24,921 bases of DNA, from positions 1 through 24,921 of the IMG/VR virus record IMGVR_UViG_3300009603_000057, one strand, 5' to 3'. The notes under the pieces were generated by a model. The model was given only the letters and a program-made list of their open reading frames with translations. It did no database searches and was not told where the DNA came from. Within the stretch, counting starts at the first letter, position 1, and each line of letters begins with the position of its first letter. A program made the translations under genes and the position numbers. The DNA is from a virus. Positions 1 through 23,155 of the stretch are shown piece by piece.

Positions 1-1104
1 CCCCTTTTCGGTGACGCCCGCCCATTTCTCAATGCGATCCAGGTCCTTCTCGTTGATCCCTCTCCGTGCTTGCTCCGGTAGATTCCTGTTCAGCAACCAC
101 CTCCTGGCGACATGAGCAACTTCGTGGATACCGGTGGAGACATCTGAATTTCGGAACCCCGTGATGATGGCAGTACCATCCTCTTTAAATTCAACAAGAC
201 CTTTGGTGGCTACATCACCTTCGCCTCTACGGAACTCAATTGTCTTGGTATCCAGACCAAGCGACTTAATAAGAGTGACCACACCTACCGCTTGATCCTC
301 ACCAATGTTCAAAGACTTAGCGACAGAGGATGTGTACTCACGAACCTCCACAACCTTCTGGTAGCCCTTCATGTCCACAACACCGTCCCGAACGGCTTGC
401 ATGACTTCATCAGGAGACTTCCCAGCAGCCTTCGCCTTGAGGCCGTGACGGAAACCACGGAGTCCCTGTATGAAGGTGTCTACGAGACCACCAATACCGA
501 GACCCTCGATGGCGTTCTTCAAGCGGCCCTCAATCTCCGAGTCGTTCTCGTCAGATGCGAGATACTCCGTTATCGGGTTCTGAAGAGACGGGGCCATTTG
601 AATCAGGTTTGACAACCGAGCCGCGTGTGCATCAAACACAGCGAAGTCAGTGACCGCACCAGCGACCGCATACTTACCAAGCTCCCTCCCCTTAGCAATC
701 GCAGCAGCCTTCCTACCAGCCCCAGCGGCCTTCTCAGCCTTCGTGAGTACCCCTGAGACTTTGGTGAGTGCGCCAATCTTAGAAGCAGCTCCGAGACCCA
801 CACCAACAAACGGAATAGCGAACTGAGAGATTCCCTCGACAATACCACCGACCATCGTGGAGGACTTACCAAGAAGTCTGTTGTCATAGTCTGGCAAAGC
901 ATCAAAGGTCATGTAGTCTGCAAGGTTGTAGACACCCTGGATGGCTCCCTCGACACCGCGGAATGGTGCGGCGGCAATGTCTCCGAGATACCCCCAGAAT
1001 CCTAGTTGTTCTTCTTGGAGATTATTGGAGGATCCGGTGGCTTGTTGTTCTTTCTCTTGGAAGGAGGAATACCCCTGCATCATCTCATCGAAAGATCTAG
1101 CCAT
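1..1104 (-). CDS. gp16-like internal virion (ejection) protein, partial at window edge, with HExxH motif
   Basis: The frame is open from ATG 1104 to the window edge, giving 368 residues without a stop, so the 3' part is missing. The start overlaps the TAA of the preceding gene (TAATG) and has a good Shine-Dalgarno (AAGGAAC). The position, last of the gp13-gp14-gp15-gp16 series, marks it as the large core/ejection protein that T7-like phages send into the cell with the DNA. I see no obvious T7 gp16-type transglycosylase domain in the visible N-terminal part. Instead there is a Gly/Ala-rich hydrophobic stretch at about residues 86-110 (motif SQFAIPFVGVGLGAASKI) and an HEVAH motif at residues 327-331 followed by basic residues, as in zinc metallopeptidases. 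The family call rests mainly on gene order; the peptidase idea is inference from one motif. Confidence 0.7.
   Translation of the reverse strand, partial: MARSFDEMMQGYSSFQEKEQQATGSSNNLQEEQLGFWGYLGDIAAAPFRGVEGAIQGVYNLADYMTFDALPDYDNRLLGKSSTMVGGIVEGISQFAIPFVGVGLGAASKIGALTKVSGVLTKAEKAAGAGRKAAAIAKGRELGKYAVAGAVTDFAVFDAHAARLSNLIQMAPSLQNPITEYLASDENDSEIEGRLKNAIEGLGIGGLVDTFIQGLRGFRHGLKAKAAGKSPDEVMQAVRDGVVDMKGYQKVVEVREYTSSVAKSLNIGEDQAVGVVTLIKSLGLDTKTIEFRRGEGDVATKGLVEFKEDGTAIITGFRNSDVSTGIHEVAHVARRWLLNRNLPEQARRGINEKDLDRIEKWAGVTEKG
774..843 (-). repeat. Source copy of the 70-bp direct repeat
   Basis: This stretch of the gp16-like gene encodes VEGISQFAIPFVGVG and the following residues. It is identical to 1463-1532 in the gp15-like gene. 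Both copies are in the same orientation, 689 bp apart. Confidence 0.95.
955..978 (-). repeat. Source copy of the 24-bp direct repeat
   Basis: This stretch of the gp16-like gene encodes IAAAPFRG. It is identical to 1443-1466 in the gp15-like gene, in the same orientation and 488 bp apart. Confidence 0.95.
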
Positions 1105-3530
1105 TATTTAGTTCCTTGATAACCAAGAAGGGATGATTGGGTGAATAAAAACGTTGTATCGTTGTAAGCTGGCATGTGCTTAATCAAGCGACCGATGTAA
1201 GTGTCGGCTTTGTTTTCGGCGTTCTCATATTCGTCCGCCGCACCCCTCACTTCGTCCATGTTTCTAAAATAGAGAACTCGCCTGGGGTTTGTTACATCTG
1301 AAGGCATGAACACCCCGTGCTGATCAAGGTTCCCGTTCGTCTTGGCCATATCCAGTTCATCTGGAGTGTATGGGTCTGCACCAATAGATCTAGCTGCTTG
1401 GTACTCCAGAAGAAGATTAGGATCTGGGGAAAACAGATCTTTACCGCGGAATGGTGCGGCGGCAATCTTAGAAGCAGCTCCGAGACCCACACCAACAAAC
1501 GGAATAGCGAACTGAGAGATTCCCTCGACAATTTGACCAGCCGGTGCTGACGGGTAGGCGTTGATCAAATTGATGCCAATTTTACCCTCTTCGATTTTAA
1601 GTTCACGGTTGAAGTGGAGCAGAATGTCGCTGGCAACACGGGTTCCTCGGAACTCTTCCAACCTAATTTGCCCCGCTTCACGAACAGCGGCCATTGCTTT
1701 TTCCCGTTGAGTCCCTATTTTGCTGACAATATTTTCCCGGTTGTCATCAACCACGCGCGCAAACTTACTGTCATTATGACGCCATGTTGTCCCGGGCGTG
1801 GTAAGAACGAGGGGATCAAATTCTCCAGCCTTTTTCGTGATCTGGCGGAGAGGACTCGTAGTGGGAACGGTGCCGGTGTGCGCTTCCATTTGTTCCGCCT
1901 CAATTCTCTTAATTTCAGCACGGACATTTGCGTCTATCTGCTCGTCAGAGTGCCCCAGCTCTATACCACTCGATGTGGCTGCTTTGATTGCGGAATCCAT
2001 TTCCCGACGAATTCTAACCAATTCATCTTCGATAATACTACTTGTCTCGTCGGTTACTTGCCCCGAACGAGAGCTGTGTTCGGACCCTGCCTCAAACATT
2101 GTCGTTGTCATTGTGGTTTTAATTTTGTTCAAGGAGGATGCGAGTTCGGGTCTACTTCTCTTTGTAGCCTCACCTGCCTGCCCCTTGACATCCTCATACA
2201 GATCTGCGAAGTCGAGGAATACCCTGTAGTCTTTTGGTGAGAGATCATCCGAACGACTTCTAATCTCTTCTCTAAATTGATCTGGGGTCATTGTTGGAGA
2301 TCCACCCCTAAAATCAGCACGAATACTATCGAGATACTCAAGTGTATCCCTATCAGACTCATCGCCCAATCGGAGCTGGCTGTGTGCTGTTGCTCTGGCA
2401 TTTAGGATAAATTTTGAAACATTCTGAACACCGGCTTCTTTAAGTTTTGGACGGAGATCGTCATCGACCTGATCAAGATCAAGGTCTTCGCTTTCGATCT
2501 TTTCCGCTAGGTACTGGTCAATAACTTCGTTAGCCGTTCGTGTCTCCGCTCTATCGAGGTATTGCGCACGTCTTTCGTCTCTAACAAGTGCAGCATCGGC
2601 TAGTTCGGGGATTTGGTCGAGAAGTGTATCCATTTCCGATGCAAACGAATAATCCAAACGCTGGCCTGCAATCTTCATAGAACCCACCTCACCCAAGAAG
2701 TTGATTGCAGAAATTTCATCATCCTCTGCAATTTGTTTGGCTCGCATTTCAATTGCTTTCCACATCCCATCACGACCAGACTTACCAGTGAGTGTGTGGT
2801 GCTTGTTGTTGATTTCAAGCAGACCGGCTTTCCACTCATTTATTTGAGAAGGGGTCACGGGTATATTAATATCCATACCCGCCCACCCGAGATCCAGATC
2901 AACAGTCTTAGGAAAGTTTGAGAGGTGCTCATACACCTTATCCACGTAATCATCCTCATTCTGCTTTACAGTCCTGGCAGCCCGCACTTGATACACCTGC
3001 TGTGAGAACACATTGGCTTGTTTATTGAACTCTTCAGCAGCAGCAGCAGAGGCGTAGAATCCCCCAGTGTTCAGAGTTTCAAAATGAGCCTGCAAGGCTT
3101 CCCGAGGATCTTCAGTGCTATAGGGATCCGAGAAACGATCTAGTTGTTCAATGCGCCATTTCTCAAGAGAAGTTCGGGCCATCATAGCCCCGGCATGTCG
3201 CCTGATTGCTCTCTGAGCATACGGGCTTGCGCCATCCGGTAGTCCTTGTTTCCGCCACTCTGAAGCGAGAGCATCTTCCAACTCCTCCTCAGTCATCGTA
3301 CTGACCTGAGCAATCCCCTCCTCAGTCTCACGCTCAACCATGTCCTCCCACAGATCACCGGTGATTTGCTTCAACTGTGGTGAGAACTCCGCAAGCGAAC
3401 GGGCAATATCAATCATCTCGTTCTGCGGCATTTGGAAGTAACCGGGGGAGATGTAAGAATCGGTGACTTGTTGTACTGGTTGGATTGCTTGGGAGGTATT
3501 GAGATCTTCTACTTGTTGTCTTTTAGCCAT
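1104..3530 (-). CDS. gp15-like internal virion protein (808 aa)
   Basis: This is a long, mostly hydrophilic, helix-rich protein with many charged and Gln/Glu residues, lying between the gp14-like and gp16-like genes. That is the position of T7 gp15 (747 aa), a core protein that forms part of the DNA ejection conduit. The start ATG 3530 follows the upstream stop by 3 nt and has GGAG upstream. Residues about 667-696 are an anomaly: the encoding DNA (1443-1532) is copied from two places in the gp16-like gene, and this is the only strongly hydrophobic segment in an otherwise polar region. About 110 residues follow it (DLFSPD... to GYQGTK) with no motif I recognise. The function is assigned by synteny and overall character, not by a specific motif. 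Confidence 0.7.
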   Translation of the reverse strand: MAKRQQVEDLNTSQAIQPVQQVTDSYISPGYFQMPQNEMIDIARSLAEFSPQLKQITGDLWEDMVERETEEGIAQVSTMTEEELEDALASEWRKQGLPDGASPYAQRAIRRHAGAMMARTSLEKWRIEQLDRFSDPYSTEDPREALQAHFETLNTGGFYASAAAAEEFNKQANVFSQQVYQVRAARTVKQNEDDYVDKVYEHLSNFPKTVDLDLGWAGMDINIPVTPSQINEWKAGLLEINNKHHTLTGKSGRDGMWKAIEMRAKQIAEDDEISAINFLGEVGSMKIAGQRLDYSFASEMDTLLDQIPELADAALVRDERRAQYLDRAETRTANEVIDQYLAEKIESEDLDLDQVDDDLRPKLKEAGVQNVSKFILNARATAHSQLRLGDESDRDTLEYLDSIRADFRGGSPTMTPDQFREEIRSRSDDLSPKDYRVFLDFADLYEDVKGQAGEATKRSRPELASSLNKIKTTMTTTMFEAGSEHSSRSGQVTDETSSIIEDELVRIRREMDSAIKAATSSGIELGHSDEQIDANVRAEIKRIEAEQMEAHTGTVPTTSPLRQITKKAGEFDPLVLTTPGTTWRHNDSKFARVVDDNRENIVSKIGTQREKAMAAVREAGQIRLEEFRGTRVASDILLHFNRELKIEEGKIGINLINAYPSAPAGQIVEGISQFAIPFVGVGLGAASKIAAAPFRGKDLFSPDPNLLLEYQAARSIGADPYTPDELDMAKTNGNLDQHGVFMPSDVTNPRRVLYFRNMDEVRGAADEYENAENKADTYIGRLIKHMPAYNDTTFLFTQSSLLGYQGTK
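1443..1532 (-). repeat. 90-nt block copied from the gp16-like gene, in scrambled order
   Basis: Positions 1463-1532 are an exact 70-bp copy of 774-843, and positions 1443-1466 are an exact 24-bp copy of 955-978. The two copied pieces share the 4 bases CAAT (ATTG on the coding strand) at 1463-1466. In the source gene the 955-978 piece lies upstream of the 774-843 piece in reading direction; in this copy the order is reversed. Both pieces keep the reading frame of the source, and the whole block is 90 nt (30 codons), so the gp15-like frame stays open. Confidence 0.95.
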
Positions 3531-4741: not shown

Positions 4742-7233
4742 TTAAGTTCAAACTCCGCTGACATTAGATTACTGGGGAGTGGGCTATCGTTCTTGATCGT
4801 AATTGTAACTTGGTTTGCTTTAGAGAATACGGGAAATCTGAATTCTCCACTTTCCAAAGGAACTTCTCCAAGGGTCAATGCAGACCCCAACACACGACCA
4901 GCGAAGACATGGTTATTGGTGTCTCGATAATCTTGGGTTACTTCCACCGAGAAGTAGGAAGAGTCCGCATATACCAATGTGCCATATCGAAGTTGTGCAC
5001 GACCATCTGTGATAACCGCGCGACCACCTCCGGGGGATTGTTCCTTCAGGGTTACATCAGACATCTGATAGGACATCTCATAAGCCTCACCTACATAGAA
5101 ACCAAGCGCACCCAGGACAGCGGTGATTAACCCATAATCCACGGTTTCGGTGGCGGTGCTGAGATCGCCCTCATCTTCGGTGGTGGAGGCTGTATCAGTA
5201 ACATCCCCATAGTCCACTACATCAATCAGTGGGTCTCGTAGGGTGATTGTGGTGTCCCCAGCTTCAGGAGTACTTGTCACAGGAACCCTTGCGCCTGCGG
5301 TGGTGATCACCTGAATATCAGTTCGACCTGCGGTCACTTGGTATGGAAGAGTTACAATCTGTCCTGTGGCGTCTATGGTGGCTGCGCCAGACCTTCGGTC
5401 CAGACGAGATACATAAGTCGAATCAGTGTCCGTCTTCCCAGCTTCAAACGCCATCTTCTCAATGAAGACACCTTGACTACGATAAACCACCAAGTAGAGG
5501 TCAGTATCTATGAAGTCTGCCCCAAGTATGGTTGATCCAGTTCCAAACTCAAACCTGTGCCAAGCACTCTGTAGTCTTTCTACCCCAGAGTTGTGGAAGT
5601 TATAGACATACAAAGCATCAGTATCCCCATCCGCCATGCACACCAGAACATTCTCGTGGGAGGCGGCGGCAATCTTCGTGATCTTTCCGGGGATGTATTT
5701 GGGGATGTGCGCGGAGACATCAAACCCCTCAAAGATATCTTCTACAGCGTCTTTGGGGATATACTCCCTGACACCTGAGTAGGATCCCCGATTGAATGGG
5801 AACATGATCGACGGACCAATTGAGACCGGATCACAGGCCAACAAACAATCATAACTGGTGGAGTGCGCAATGGAGACAGTCTTAGGTGTCAACACCGGGC
5901 CACCCTGAAGTATGAACTGGTTGGTATCTGAGAATAGCACCAACTTCTGAGCCATTGGGACGGCGTGTCGGAGCACCGCAACTCTGTTGTGGGCAGAAGC
6001 GACATCAATCACAGCGGTATCCAACAGATCAACCACGGTGGTTCTGAAGAAGTTAAAGAACTCTCCTGACTCACTCAGGATCGTGTTCTCTCCCGCGAGT
6101 ACCCCAAGACGGTTCTTGAACAAGAAAATATCGTTGATTGTTTGCCCAACGAAAGACGGATCTGGGTTTGTATCTGCGTCACCAACCAGACGGGTTCCCC
6201 ACGAAAATGCGGAATAATCGTACACTGGGTTGGGAGCTGTATCACTGGTATGGGTGCCACCATCAGCTTTCTTGAATACAAACGTACTATCAGCCTGACG
6301 GATCAGTACATGGGGCATCGTGGAAGCATCGAGTTGAAGTGAGTCTACAAGAGCAGGGGCAGCGCACTCTTCCCAAGTACCCTCACCAATCGTTCCAGAA
6401 CCACTCAGTGCCACAAACTTCACATAGTAATCATCGACTGTTTCAGAAGGTTCACCCTCCACTTTGAGAATCAAACCGTCTTTGGCATAAGTAGGGAGGT
6501 CTGTGAATCGCTGACAAGAGCCTTTGAAGACTTCAATGTTTGAATCACCATCTGTGTGTGCGACGTTGATTGTGAAGTCAGCACCACTATTGGAGATATA
6601 GATTACATGACTTCCCGCGACTGCCGAGAAATTTCCTGATCCGTGAATATCCCCCGCAAGATCCGTCGCAATCGCAGAGGCGGTTGAGGCGGCCACTGCT
6701 GTGAATGTCGCAGCGGGGGAGGTGGCTTCATCATCCACATCTATAGTGTAATCACCAACAATACCGCCCTGCTTCACAAACACCAGAGCTTCATAGGTGT
6801 TCACAGAACTTGGGGTGTCTGCGGCGGCATCCATGATGACCGTTTTCTCGGTATTCACAATGAACGTAACATCCGCAATGGTTACAACACGAAAAGCGGT
6901 GTCCGCATTATCTGTGTCCAGATATGTCACACCATCCGGTACATCCACAGTCTCTTCATTCAGGTTGACCAGATCGAAGACCTTGATGTATTCATCCCGA
7001 AGGACCACAGAGTACCGCTCCGATTCATCACGGTTGATCGTGTGAACGAAGGTCTTACCACCGGTGGTGATACCCGTGTTCATCAGGTGCTCGGTTGGCA
7101 ACCGTTTGGTCAACCCCTCAATTATTGATGGGTAGGCGTTCTCCTGAGCCTCACATTGAGTGGGGAATCTCAGAGAGTCGGGTTGCTGTGAAACCCCATT
7201 GATGAGGTTTGGGATGGTCTTGGAAATAAGCAT
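4708..7233 (-). CDS. Tail tubular protein B (gp12-like nozzle)
   Basis: The 841-residue product begins with SKTIPNLINGVSQQPDSLRF, the N-terminal signature of T7 gp12 (794 aa), which forms the tail nozzle. The IPNL.NGVSQQP stretch is very well conserved among T7-like phages. The rest is beta-rich, with Thr/Asp/Val-rich repeats in the middle (about residues 160-250 and 620-700), consistent with the nozzle and propeller domains. The start ATG overlaps the gp11-like stop (TGATG). It works with tail tubular protein A below the portal; fibres would attach at this junction. Confidence 0.93.
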   Translation of the reverse strand: MLISKTIPNLINGVSQQPDSLRFPTQCEAQENAYPSIIEGLTKRLPTEHLMNTGITTGGKTFVHTINRDESERYSVVLRDEYIKVFDLVNLNEETVDVPDGVTYLDTDNADTAFRVVTIADVTFIVNTEKTVIMDAAADTPSSVNTYEALVFVKQGGIVGDYTIDVDDEATSPAATFTAVAASTASAIATDLAGDIHGSGNFSAVAGSHVIYISNSGADFTINVAHTDGDSNIEVFKGSCQRFTDLPTYAKDGLILKVEGEPSETVDDYYVKFVALSGSGTIGEGTWEECAAPALVDSLQLDASTMPHVLIRQADSTFVFKKADGGTHTSDTAPNPVYDYSAFSWGTRLVGDADTNPDPSFVGQTINDIFLFKNRLGVLAGENTILSESGEFFNFFRTTVVDLLDTAVIDVASAHNRVAVLRHAVPMAQKLVLFSDTNQFILQGGPVLTPKTVSIAHSTSYDCLLACDPVSIGPSIMFPFNRGSYSGVREYIPKDAVEDIFEGFDVSAHIPKYIPGKITKIAAASHENVLVCMADGDTDALYVYNFHNSGVERLQSAWHRFEFGTGSTILGADFIDTDLYLVVYRSQGVFIEKMAFEAGKTDTDSTYVSRLDRRSGAATIDATGQIVTLPYQVTAGRTDIQVITTAGARVPVTSTPEAGDTTITLRDPLIDVVDYGDVTDTASTTEDEGDLSTATETVDYGLITAVLGALGFYVGEAYEMSYQMSDVTLKEQSPGGGRAVITDGRAQLRYGTLVYADSSYFSVEVTQDYRDTNNHVFAGRVLGSALTLGEVPLESGEFRFPVFSKANQVTITIKNDSPLPSNLMSAEFELNWSPRAKRVGV

Positions 7234-11882: not shown

Positions 11883-12097
11883 CAGTATGCTCCACCAACA
11901 CCGGAACCAGCACCAACATTGTCAAGTTTGATCTTCAACCCTGATACGCCACGACGTTTCTTAGCACTCGCTCGCCCCTCGCGCCTTGCAACACCCCTAC
12001 CCGGAGCTACCACAGTCTCAGCAGATTGCTGTGGGGGCGGTGGAGGTGGTGGTGGGGGAGGTGGTGGTCCGGGCATTTTTGGAGAAGACATGCACAT
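11882..12097 (-). CDS. Polyproline small protein upstream of portal
   Basis: From ATG 12097 the 71-residue product carries a run of twelve prolines near residues 10-22, then a basic region (RGVARREGRASAKKRRG) and a short hydrophobic tail (LKIKLDNVG). A small polyproline protein directly before the portal gene is a recurring, uncharacterised feature of marine T7-like podoviruses. A GTG at 12100 is an alternative start, but ATG 12097 overlaps the upstream stop (TGATG) and has GGAG 8 nt upstream. The gene touches the portal start at 11882. Its role is unknown; association with the head or with nucleic acid is a guess from the basic part. Confidence 0.6.
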   Translation of the reverse strand: MCMSSPKMPGPPPPPPPPPPPPQQSAETVVAPGRGVARREGRASAKKRRGVSGLKIKLDNVGAGSGVGGAY

Positions 12098-12303
12098 CAC
12101 TGGGACTCCAGAATGGTTTCGTTCTGCTCTTTGAAAAGGGCGGTGAGGTGATCAACAACAGATCGTTGACCAACCGCGTAGAAAATTACCCGCTCTTGTG
12201 TGTCAAGATCAGGACTTTTAAGTGGGAACTGAGATTCAAGCCAGTCGATAAGTTCACGAGAAACTTGAGGAGTTCGTTCATATACTTGGCCCTTATCCAC
12301 CAT
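12097..12303 (-). CDS. Hypothetical small protein (68 aa)
   Basis: The start ATG 12303 has a strong ribosome site (GAAGGA, 5-6 nt upstream) and overlaps the end of the Nmad1-like gene. A longer frame to 12327 is open, but its first codons have no ribosome site. The product begins MVDKGQVYERTPQVSRELID and contains WLESQFPLKSPDLDTQER, then a helix with HLTALFKEQNE. It is soluble, mildly acidic and has no motif I recognise. Its place between DNA metabolism genes and the portal block is typical for small conserved genes of T7-like phages. Confidence 0.6.
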   Translation of the reverse strand: MVDKGQVYERTPQVSRELIDWLESQFPLKSPDLDTQERVIFYAVGQRSVVDHLTALFKEQNETILESQ

Positions 12304-13362: not shown

Positions 13363-13564
13363 TGTGAGATCCGTCTCCTGATTCTGCTGCCATCCTGGCA
13401 ATCACAGACAATCCTAAAACTGAGTGGTAAGAACCCATAAGTGAAAGAACAATATCCTCCACATCCTTCGTCATCTTGGCTGCGGCAACAAAGATTGAAG
13501 CATCAAATCGTCTGTGGAGTTCTGTAAGAAGTTCCGTGGTTGCAAAGTATTCAAGTGGTTCCAT
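13337..13564 (-). CDS. Small conserved-looking phage protein (75 aa)
   Basis: The product begins MEPLEYFATTELLTELHRRF and continues DASIFVAAAKMTKDVEDIVL, then GSYHSVLGLSVIARMAAESG. The pattern 'F.T.ELl.EL..RFDa' with a central Gly-His turn is one I associate with small conserved phage proteins between polymerase and exonuclease, but I cannot name a function. It overlaps the homing endonuclease gene by 94 nt in another frame and the exonuclease start by 26 nt. No clear ribosome site precedes it, which could reflect the later arrival of the endonuclease gene over its upstream region. Confidence 0.6.
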   Translation of the reverse strand: MEPLEYFATTELLTELHRRFDASIFVAAAKMTKDVEDIVLSLMGSYHSVLGLSVIARMAAESGDGSHNDKNDTTD

Positions 13565-13962
13565 TCGTAATTGATCCGCTTTAACTTGCTTAGTTCTTGA
13601 GTTAATTGATCACGTTTGTAAGAGCGTGGTGGATACGCAGAGATCTCCAGAAGTATCTGAGCTTGTGGACGTTTCTCTTGTAAGTATGGTAGAACGTGAT
13701 TGATACAGTTACGAGCGTTGTCTCCGGTTGCAACCCAAGTATATGCCTGTCTCCACTTTGGGTTTTGGGTTTGAGCCTTGGAGCTAAACGTACCTCCGAA
13801 CATTAACTCAAACCACTTCAGGGTATGGATGTAGGTATTCTCAATACAAACTGCGGGAGATCCATTGGTAAACTTGAAGCACCCCTCACCATCAAGATAC
13901 CCAGCCGCATACGCTAATTCAAATTCTGTGTACTCAGTGCGTTTCACCCCATGAATCTCCAA
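13471..13962 (-). CDS. LAGLIDADG homing endonuclease, free-standing
   Basis: The 163-residue product has one clear LAGLIDADG motif, AYAAGYLDGEGCF, at about residues 17-29, with the metal-binding Asp/Glu in LDGEG. The second half has LPYLQEKRPQAQILLEI, a common feature of single-motif, dimeric members. The gene is not inside an intron or intein: the polymerase upstream ends with a normal-looking C-terminus and overlaps this gene by only 29 nt. The listed start is TTG 13962 (GGAGAG 7 nt upstream); GTG 13947 is an equally good alternative. Its target is probably the same locus in a phage lacking it. Confidence 0.85.
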   Translation of the reverse strand: MEIHGVKRTEYTEFELAYAAGYLDGEGCFKFTNGSPAVCIENTYIHTLKWFELMFGGTFSSKAQTQNPKWRQAYTWVATGDNARNCINHVLPYLQEKRPQAQILLEISAYPPRSYKRDQLTQELSKLKRINYEWNHLNTLQPRNFLQNSTDDLMLQSLLPQPR

Positions 13963-15747: not shown

Positions 15748-16590
15748 TCATCCTTCATGTGATGCGTTAGTGGATAGAATAGCTCGTCCTAATAGTTCGG
15801 GGATCTGGGGGACTACGGCGTTGCCTAGTTGTTTAAGTCTGTCCACCCGCTTGGGTATCCCATGAGCCACTCGACCCACGTTGGGTTCAACGTCCCAAGC
15901 TTCCATTCTTCTGGGGTTGAGCCACGAACCAAGGGGTGGTTCCCCAACATGCCTTGCATTTTCCCGTTGGGCGTTCCTGCTGCATCCTCGTTGGCTGTCG
16001 GGGTAGGCCACATCCTCACAGCACCCCCCAACGTAGTCCCCCGTTTCGTTACTATTGTTTTCCCCACCCCCCGAACTTGATTGTTGTCCTGAGATGTGGG
16101 GGTAGGCCACAATCCAGATCCTATCCCTCTGGTGAGGCGCACCAACGGCACTAGCGGGAATACAATTCCATTCAGCGCAATACCCGACCGAGCAGAGATC
16201 TTGAAGGACCAAGGTAAGTCCCTTAGATCGAAGGGCTGATACATTTTCAATAATTGCCCACGTTGGCCGTACATCTCCGATGAGTCGAAACATCTCCGAC
16301 CAGAGACCGGATCTCTCCCCAACAATTCCTTTTCCTTTTCCGGCTCCACTGATGTCCTGGCATGGGAATCCACCCGCGATGACTGTTGGAACAATCCCAT
16401 CTGATTGCAATCTTTCAACCGTTAACTCCTTTACATCCCCATACACAGGGACACCAGGCCAATGCTTCTTGAGGACCAACTGAGCCTTATTATCAATCTC
16501 GCAGAACGCAACCGTCTGAAACCCCCCGGTCCTTTCAAGACCAAGGCTGAACCCACCGATACCAGCGAACAGATCTAAGGTGCGGTACAT
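15748..16590 (-). CDS. DNA (cytosine-5-)-methyltransferase
   Basis: The 280-residue product has the C5 methyltransferase motifs in order: motif I LDLFAGIGGFSLGLE (SAM binding), motif IV GGFPCQDIS with catalytic Cys77, motif VI ENVSALRSKG at about 115-124, motif VIII QRDRIWIVAY, and motif X QLGNAVVPQIPELLG. The target-recognition part between VIII and IX is short and rich in Ser, Gly and Asn. No restriction endonuclease is nearby, so it is an orphan enzyme, plausibly protecting phage DNA from host restriction. The start ATG has AAGGA upstream and overlaps the sigma-like gene by 16 nt; the end overlaps the polymerase leader. It looks like an accessory insertion in the T7-type module. Confidence 0.95.
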   Translation of the reverse strand: MYRTLDLFAGIGGFSLGLERTGGFQTVAFCEIDNKAQLVLKKHWPGVPVYGDVKELTVERLQSDGIVPTVIAGGFPCQDISGAGKGKGIVGERSGLWSEMFRLIGDVRPTWAIIENVSALRSKGLTLVLQDLCSVGYCAEWNCIPASAVGAPHQRDRIWIVAYPHISGQQSSSGGGENNSNETGDYVGGCCEDVAYPDSQRGCSRNAQRENARHVGEPPLGSWLNPRRMEAWDVEPNVGRVAHGIPKRVDRLKQLGNAVVPQIPELLGRAILSTNASHEG

Positions 16591-22061: not shown

Positions 22062-23090
22062 TCATCCGTGAGTACGAATCGTACCACAGTTGCTTCGTCG
22101 GTTCTCAAGTTTCTCGATTGCAGACTCCAGATCGTGAGGGGAAAGGTGGGTGTACCTCAAGGTCATCTGAATTGTCTTGTGACCTGCAAGTTTCTGAACC
22201 CCCGCAATGTGGACACCTTCTTGAACTAAGTTACTGATGAATGTGTGCCGACACGCATGCAAGGTAGCACCGGGATCATCCGACCACCCGAGTTGATGCC
22301 GAACCTTATTCCAGATCCCTCTGGTTTGGCGAGCATCCGTCCATTTGAAGGGGCCAACCTCACAGGTTTGATTTGTAATGATTCGTATCGTGGCTTGGGT
22401 CATCGGGATAGACCTCGGAGAAAAGTTCTTTGTCTCATTCAATACGATAAGTTTCCCTTGGATGTCTTCCCACTTCAGGTTGAACAACTCCCCACATCGC
22501 ATACCAGTGTCAAGCAGCACCCGAACGATCTCACCATGCTCCGGGTAACCGAGGCGGTGAAACATATCCATAATTAGATCCTGCTCATCATCCGTGTACC
22601 ACCGAATACGACCCGGAGATTCCCGTAATCTCTTGATGGGAGGCAGGCGATCCAAGATCCCCAGTTCCACCGCGACCGTCAGCATCTTACTTATGGAACT
22701 CAGTTTCCGGTTACAAGTTGCGTTGGAGTTACCGAGTTTCTTCCACTCAGAAACCGCGAGATCAATGGTCGCCTTGTCGATATCGTTGATGAGTGTCCCA
22801 GGACTGACGGTCGCAACAACTAAATTGGCGTTTATCAGGGATGTTTCTTCACTCCGAGCACCCGACCAGACCGTGTTGTAGGTGTAGTCCGCAAGTTCTT
22901 GAAGAGTCCGAGGCAGACTGCGATGCACTGAGTGTTTGGAAACCTCTGGAGTGCGCCCAGCAATCAAGTCAGCCCTCGCTTGAGCCTCCCATATCTGTGC
23001 TTGAAGTCTCTCTTTGAATGATCTCCGGTAGCGAATACCGCTGTTCGTAACAGAAGCTTCATAACTCGATCTTCGTTGTTTGATACTCAT
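22062..23090 (-). CDS. int: Tyrosine integrase
   Basis: I start at ATG 23090, which has TTGGAGG 6 nt upstream and the same leader as neighbouring genes; a frame to 23129 is open. The 342-residue product has an N-terminal arm-binding-like part (YEASVTNSGIRYRRSF), a SAM-like core-binding domain (about 60-160) and a catalytic domain. The catalytic set is complete: Arg198 (TGMRCGELFNL), Lys221 (NETKNFSP), His278 and Arg281 (HACRHTF), His304 (LAGHKTIQMT) and Tyr313 (LRYTHLS). It ends 29 nt before the RNA polymerase ATG, the position seen in marine integrase-bearing T7-like phages. An attP is expected close by, but I could not identify a tRNA-like core. Confidence 0.95.
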   Translation of the reverse strand: MSIKQRRSSYEASVTNSGIRYRRSFKERLQAQIWEAQARADLIAGRTPEVSKHSVHRSLPRTLQELADYTYNTVWSGARSEETSLINANLVVATVSPGTLINDIDKATIDLAVSEWKKLGNSNATCNRKLSSISKMLTVAVELGILDRLPPIKRLRESPGRIRWYTDDEQDLIMDMFHRLGYPEHGEIVRVLLDTGMRCGELFNLKWEDIQGKLIVLNETKNFSPRSIPMTQATIRIITNQTCEVGPFKWTDARQTRGIWNKVRHQLGWSDDPGATLHACRHTFISNLVQEGVHIAGVQKLAGHKTIQMTLRYTHLSPHDLESAIEKLENRRSNCGTIRTHG

Positions 23091-23155
23091 GGTCCATCCT
23101 CCAATTGTCATTTCGGTTATCTGGGTCAACTAACATCATCTTATTCTACAAGTAA

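Follow-up and report, generated by a model that had tools for sequence, protein, structure and literature searches.

An Exact, Order-Swapped Double Copy of gp16-like Sequence in the gp15-like Gene of a Marine T7-like Phage

Introduction

Microhomology-mediated template switching is recognized in the literature by discontinuous copies and by joints with 2-5 bp of microhomology (PMC2621351). The rearrangements known as MMBIR / FoSTeS contain discontinuous duplicated pieces in altered order, and the phage locus described here likewise has such pieces, with 4 bp of microhomology at the joint between them; unlike MMBIR / FoSTeS, the phage case involves short pieces within ~0.8 kb, is known from sequence alone and has been scored at its middle joint only.

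A second point of reference is K1E/K1-5, where lysozyme activity is found on the gp15 homologue as the result of T7-type gp15/gp16 domain exchange (PMC8954989). The present locus is similar in that gp16 sequence lies inside a gp15-type protein, but the shared sequence amounts to 30 residues, not a catalytic domain, the copy is exact rather than ancient, and gp16 keeps its own. Exchange of ejection-protein domains is otherwise known, as far as we have found, only as ancient outcomes, and in a literature search that left most subscription journals outside its coverage there was no report of the same gp16 to gp15 copy. Over long time scales, domain exchange between gp15 and gp16 has precedent; what is new here is a fresh, order-swapped, base-resolved copy together with the gp15 cassette in which it sits. 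Being exact, the copy offers a base-resolution view of an injection-protein piece moving into a partner virion gene, and it marks a cassette in gp15 with a testable role in injection or host range. Finally, homologous mosaicism of phage genes provides a comparison: the surrounding gp15 is likewise plainly a mosaic, whose cassettes have passed between related phages, whereas the block itself derives from a non-homologous neighbor gene of the same genome.

Results

The window, by which we mean the whole stretch of DNA analyzed, is a linear IMG/VR virus record of 24,921 bases from a marine T7-like phage that carries an integrase. Its single-subunit RNA polymerase is ~35% identical to those of pelagiphages and its virion genes follow the T7 order, as expected for an Autographiviridae-type phage, with T7-type scaffold, major capsid, head-tail adaptor, tail, internal virion and single-stranded DNA-binding proteins all found. 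A 5'-3' exonuclease, RusA and a DNA polymerase are encoded as well. The two genes of interest (Table 1) had been called gp15-like and gp16-like in the earlier note, names that hold as labels of gene order and, in the case of gp16, of similarity to the internal virion protein D of pelagiphages, the protein of Pelagibacter phage HTVC011P (phrog_6651) being homologous to the donor gene with an hhalign probability of 98%. They do not extend to detectable similarity with T7 gp15 and gp16, for which hhalign returned probabilities of 1.9 (gp16) and 0.3 (gp15), and a search of solved structures matched no T7 gp15 or gp16 chain and gave no convincing relative for either protein. The gp15-like protein has no PHROG or Pfam match, and no similarity to it could be detected in the protein at the gp15 position of HTVC011P.

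Table 1. Positions of the block, its sources and the related features discussed in the text
Feature	Position	Strand	Remark
gp16-like internal virion protein D gene, first 368 codons	1..1104	-	phrog_6651, 5.9e-11; window edge cuts the rest
gp15-like internal virion protein gene, 808 aa	1104..3530	-	lies between gp14-like and gp16-like genes
Chimeric 90-bp block in gp15-like gene, residues 667-696 (IVEGISQFAIPFVGVGLGAASKIAAAPFRG) of 808	1443..1532	-	
gp16-like source of 70-bp piece (IVEGISQFAIPFVGVGLGAASKI)	774..843	-	
gp16-like source of 24-bp piece (IAAAPFRG)	955..978	-	
4-bp joint CAAT (coding strand ATTG)	1463..1466		common to both pieces
10-bp repeat TGTCGAGGGA, copy 1, in gp16 at start of 70-bp source	832..841	-	absent as such in relatives
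10-bp repeat TGTCGAGGGA, copy 2, in gp16 at downstream edge of 24-bp source	946..955	-	
Exact 14-mer AAGATTGCCGCCGC in tail protein gene	5663..5676	-	also spans chimeric joint (1456-1469)
Segment unrelated in DNA to nearest relatives: gp15 from ~aa 180 to end plus ~34 gp16 codons	1002..2989		boundaries approximate
Loci of swapped ~230-bp cassette, 3' part of gp15	L010:2430-4727, L012:3623-5923, L013:779-3097		

The block is made up of two exact repeats of gp16-like sequence, one of 70 bp (774-843 = 1463-1532) and one of 24 bp (955-978 = 1443-1466), that overlap at the 4-bp joint. On the coding strand the 24-bp piece lies upstream of the 70-bp piece in gp16 (IAAAPFRG before IVEG...), and in gp15 this order is reversed; both pieces are read in gp15 in their source frame and give the same peptides. 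The longest other exact direct repeat in the window is only 14 bp, so the block is far beyond chance. Its G+C content of 0.54 equals that of gp16 (0.54), the surroundings being at 0.46-0.48, and the source pieces are intact in gp16, as expected for copying rather than cut and paste. Microhomology was scored at the middle joint only; 1.8% of random joints within gp16 share at least 4 bp (P = 0.018). The 70-bp piece both starts and ends with ATTG on the coding strand. In these respects the description in the earlier note, namely exact pieces in reversed order and source frame meeting at CAAT/ATTG, was accurate. It had also pointed to a PFRG motif; IAAAPFRG is indeed present in the block, but GDIAAAPFRG is just a stretch that has been conserved among the closest gp16 relatives, and we know of no named motif of that kind. 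The two copies of the 70-bp direct repeat, 689 bp apart, constitute a deletion substrate, and a deletion between them would fuse gp15 to gp16 in frame, a product seen in none of the four assemblies that carry the block.

These assemblies are the window and exactly three other contigs recovered by a pattern scan for the joint (3300025282_000671, 3300008216_000368 and 3300009413_000160), which match the window at 99.9% identity and show 4, 4 and 7 differences, respectively. Several of the differences are private and none falls in the block or in the source sites. Because four assemblies with private SNPs carry an identical joint, the block is not the chimera of one assembly, a concern that the earlier note had raised.

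The direction of transfer can be read from more distant relatives. In L010/L011, L012/L014 and L013 both segments are found in gp16 and neither in gp15. Between the gp16 gene of the window and those of L010, L011, L012 and L014, 6 of 70 and 4 of 24 source bases differ, and at 10 of these 10 substitutions the gp15 copy carries the base of the window gp16. Since all ten were copied, the donor would be, barring later conversion, gp16 of the window lineage after its split from these four relatives, so that a gp16 to gp15 transfer, as proposed earlier, is supported by the pattern of substitutions.

Exact identity had been taken to mean that the event is recent, and this stands as a bound. Over positions 338-978 the window gp16 differs from that of L010 at 50 of 641 sites (7.8%), whereas between the copies 0 of 90 sites differ, which by the rule of three caps their divergence at ~3.3% (95% upper limit); comparison of the two values puts the age of the event at most at roughly 40% of that of the split. 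The event would thus postdate the split from the nearest relatives and predate the common ancestor of the four assemblies, which differ by ~0.1% or less, with the proviso that later conversion between the copies could hide its age.

The gp15 gene around the block is itself a mosaic, a feature that the earlier note missed. The 90-bp patch sits inside a ~2-kb segment unrelated in DNA to L010, flanked by sequence that is ~84-93% identical to it; the 5' part of gp15 is 92-93% identical and gp16 from ~938 down to 338 mostly 89-97%. When L010 and L012 are compared with each other, gp15 after ~codon 180 is mostly 86-100% identical, except for ~230 bp at ~56-72%. Within this stretch L012 is 76-94% identical to L013, with the regions on either side at ~50-66%; L012 carries an L013-like version of the cassette on an L010-like gp15 gene. 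Protein alignment places the patch of the window inside this same cassette. In a second clade (L071-L082), comparison of the ORFs at the gp15 position of L071, L073, L074, L079, L080 and L082 gave mostly 77-100% identity, dropping to 40-57% near the 3' end, where one or the other of two versions is found, and returning to 90-97% at the end of the gene. Because cassettes are swapped there in both clades, the 3' part of gp15 emerges as a site of repeated allelic exchange, and the patch, judged from these alignments, is the peculiar filling of that site in the window lineage. Two different mosaic events, one at ~2990-3010 in the window and the other between L010 and L012, break near gp15 codon 180, adjoining a conserved QVYQxRAART.

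We also looked for a close gp15 without the block. Searches with the whole protein, its C-terminal 359 aa, each flank of the block and a gp15 alignment recovered nothing closer than the distant relatives, apart from the three near-identical contigs; phage records (searched by DNA and by gp15 protein) and genome contigs likewise yielded none. No gp15-gp16 exact repeat of comparable length occurs in ~40 relatives' loci (374 kb), where the longer repeats (20-28 bp) are short-spaced and lie in other places. Exact copies of 23-28 bp, 72 bp apart, are found downstream of gp16 in two of the relatives, at L005:8225-8358 and L012:8671-8768.

Discussion

With a probability of roughly two in three, we attribute the block to a single complex, microhomology-guided template switch that copied two gp16 stretches into gp15 and was tolerated at a recombination-prone linker. 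Template switching is favored because the exact copies, the 4-bp joint and the swapped order fit the published marks. The T7-type single-stranded DNA-binding protein, 5'-3' exonuclease, RusA and DNA polymerase of the phage count in its favor as well. During copying or repair of the gp15 linker region, the nascent strand would have jumped to gp16 at ATTG (843, + strand) and copied 70 nt (843 to 774); a backward slip of ~200 nt, to the next ATTG (978), would have added a further 20 nt before the strand went back to gp15, so that one event completes the block. ATTG may have served for the first jump too, as the 70-bp piece begins with it. Only an in-frame product would keep the virion gene open, and such a product was presumably tolerated because the linker it fell in is little conserved, precedes a small C-terminal domain and is a site of sequence exchange in related phages too. 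The copies with their order, frame and direction, their occurrence in four assemblies and the exchange of cassettes among relatives are seen directly in the sequences; that the physical process was template switching, that there was one event and that the patch was tolerated by selection rather than kept for a gain of function are points that we infer.

The support that a single 4-bp joint (P = 0.018) lends to template switching is modest, and an identical sequence would result from two successive events or from broken pieces being joined. In one alternative, gp16 fragments from degraded or unpackaged phage DNA might have been end-joined and captured in a gp15 break in a non-replicative illegitimate recombination, for which the same product is expected, in which annealing of ends fits the 4-bp overlap, and for which an exonuclease and a T7-type single-stranded DNA-binding protein are at hand among the phage's own gene products; we regard this as unlikely nonetheless, since two separate pieces from one neighbor gene are needed in the same orientation and frame, and a replicative walk explains the proximity and orientation more simply. 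A route in two or more steps would begin with a tandem duplication of gp16 774-978, or a small circle closed at ATTG, part of whose junction then moved to gp15, possibly with slippage at TGTCGAGGGA. The block is the exact junction of such a duplication or circle and the 10-bp repeat adjoins both source pieces, but no duplication or single-piece genome was found among the four assemblies or the ~40 relatives' loci and more steps are needed, making this route less likely still. That the contigs are metagenomic, and that some of the other three could be re-assemblies of one sample, would leave room for an assembly or amplification chimera, which we consider highly improbable given the identical joint in four assemblies with private SNPs and a gp15-like gene that stays open.

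Two loose ends accompany the template-switch reading, namely the TGTCGAGGGA repeat beside both sources and the 14-mer that the joint has in common with the tail gene, which a simple template-switch scheme does not explain. Bridging through the tail gene by way of AAGATTGCCGCCGC was considered as a possibility; such a match occurs in 0.34% of 20,000 simulated joints but was picked after the fact.

As to what the 30 residues might do, the 19-mer that ranks highest in hydrophobicity in gp15 lies in the block, with a Kyte-Doolittle value of 1.58 (the next is 0.59); the earlier note had thought the segment possibly membrane-active, for which this value is borderline. This is nearly equal to the top 19-mer of gp16 (1.57), a stretch that also ranks first in L010 gp16. 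The most hydrophobic stretch of other gp15 relatives is elsewhere and weaker. AlphaFold models, with mean pLDDT values of 53 and 50 from shallow alignments, are too weak to place the block; pLDDT is 25-30 around it and mostly 60-88 over the C-terminal ~100 residues, and the low predicted values are in keeping with a linker ahead of the C-terminal part.

In T7, gp16-N contacts and steadies the flexible C-terminal part of gp15, and gp15 is without predicted membrane helices (PMC8954989). By analogy with the T7 contact, and given the hydrophobicity, a function of the patch is thinkable, though homology to T7 is undetectable. An adaptive gain, which would concern the effect of the patch and not its origin, could then have kept it because a hydrophobic, gp16-type segment aids membrane contact or gp15-gp16 binding in DNA ejection. 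We view this as doubtful. The hydrophobicity close to that of gp16, the retention of the source frame by both pieces (a priori ~1 in 9) and the T7 contact speak for it, but no membrane helices are predicted for T7 gp15, hydrophobicity in other gp15 relatives peaks in another place and at a lower value, there is no detected similarity to T7 gp16, and tolerance already accounts for the site. More speculative is a wider scheme in which the C-terminal cassette of gp15 would be a place where the ejection machine diversifies under selection in several clades of marine podoviruses. Here it would have been filled with a membrane-prone copy from the phage's own gp16, so that gp15 imitates the N-terminal region of gp16 at the position of the T7 contact between gp16-N and gp15.

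Other features of the window

A scan of the window for tRNA genes and Rfam families returned none. A short ORF at 13474-13962 (-) overlaps the 3' end of the DNA polymerase gene; it has no Pfam match, and its AAGYLDGEGCF... resembles by eye a LAGLIDADG homing endonuclease. Just upstream of the head-tail adaptor gene a small ORF at 11885-12100 (-), also without a Pfam match, contains a run of ~12 prolines. Genes for a DNA methyltransferase (15751-16590, -) and the integrase (22065-23129, -) are both present in this T7-like phage, which suggests a temperate life style.
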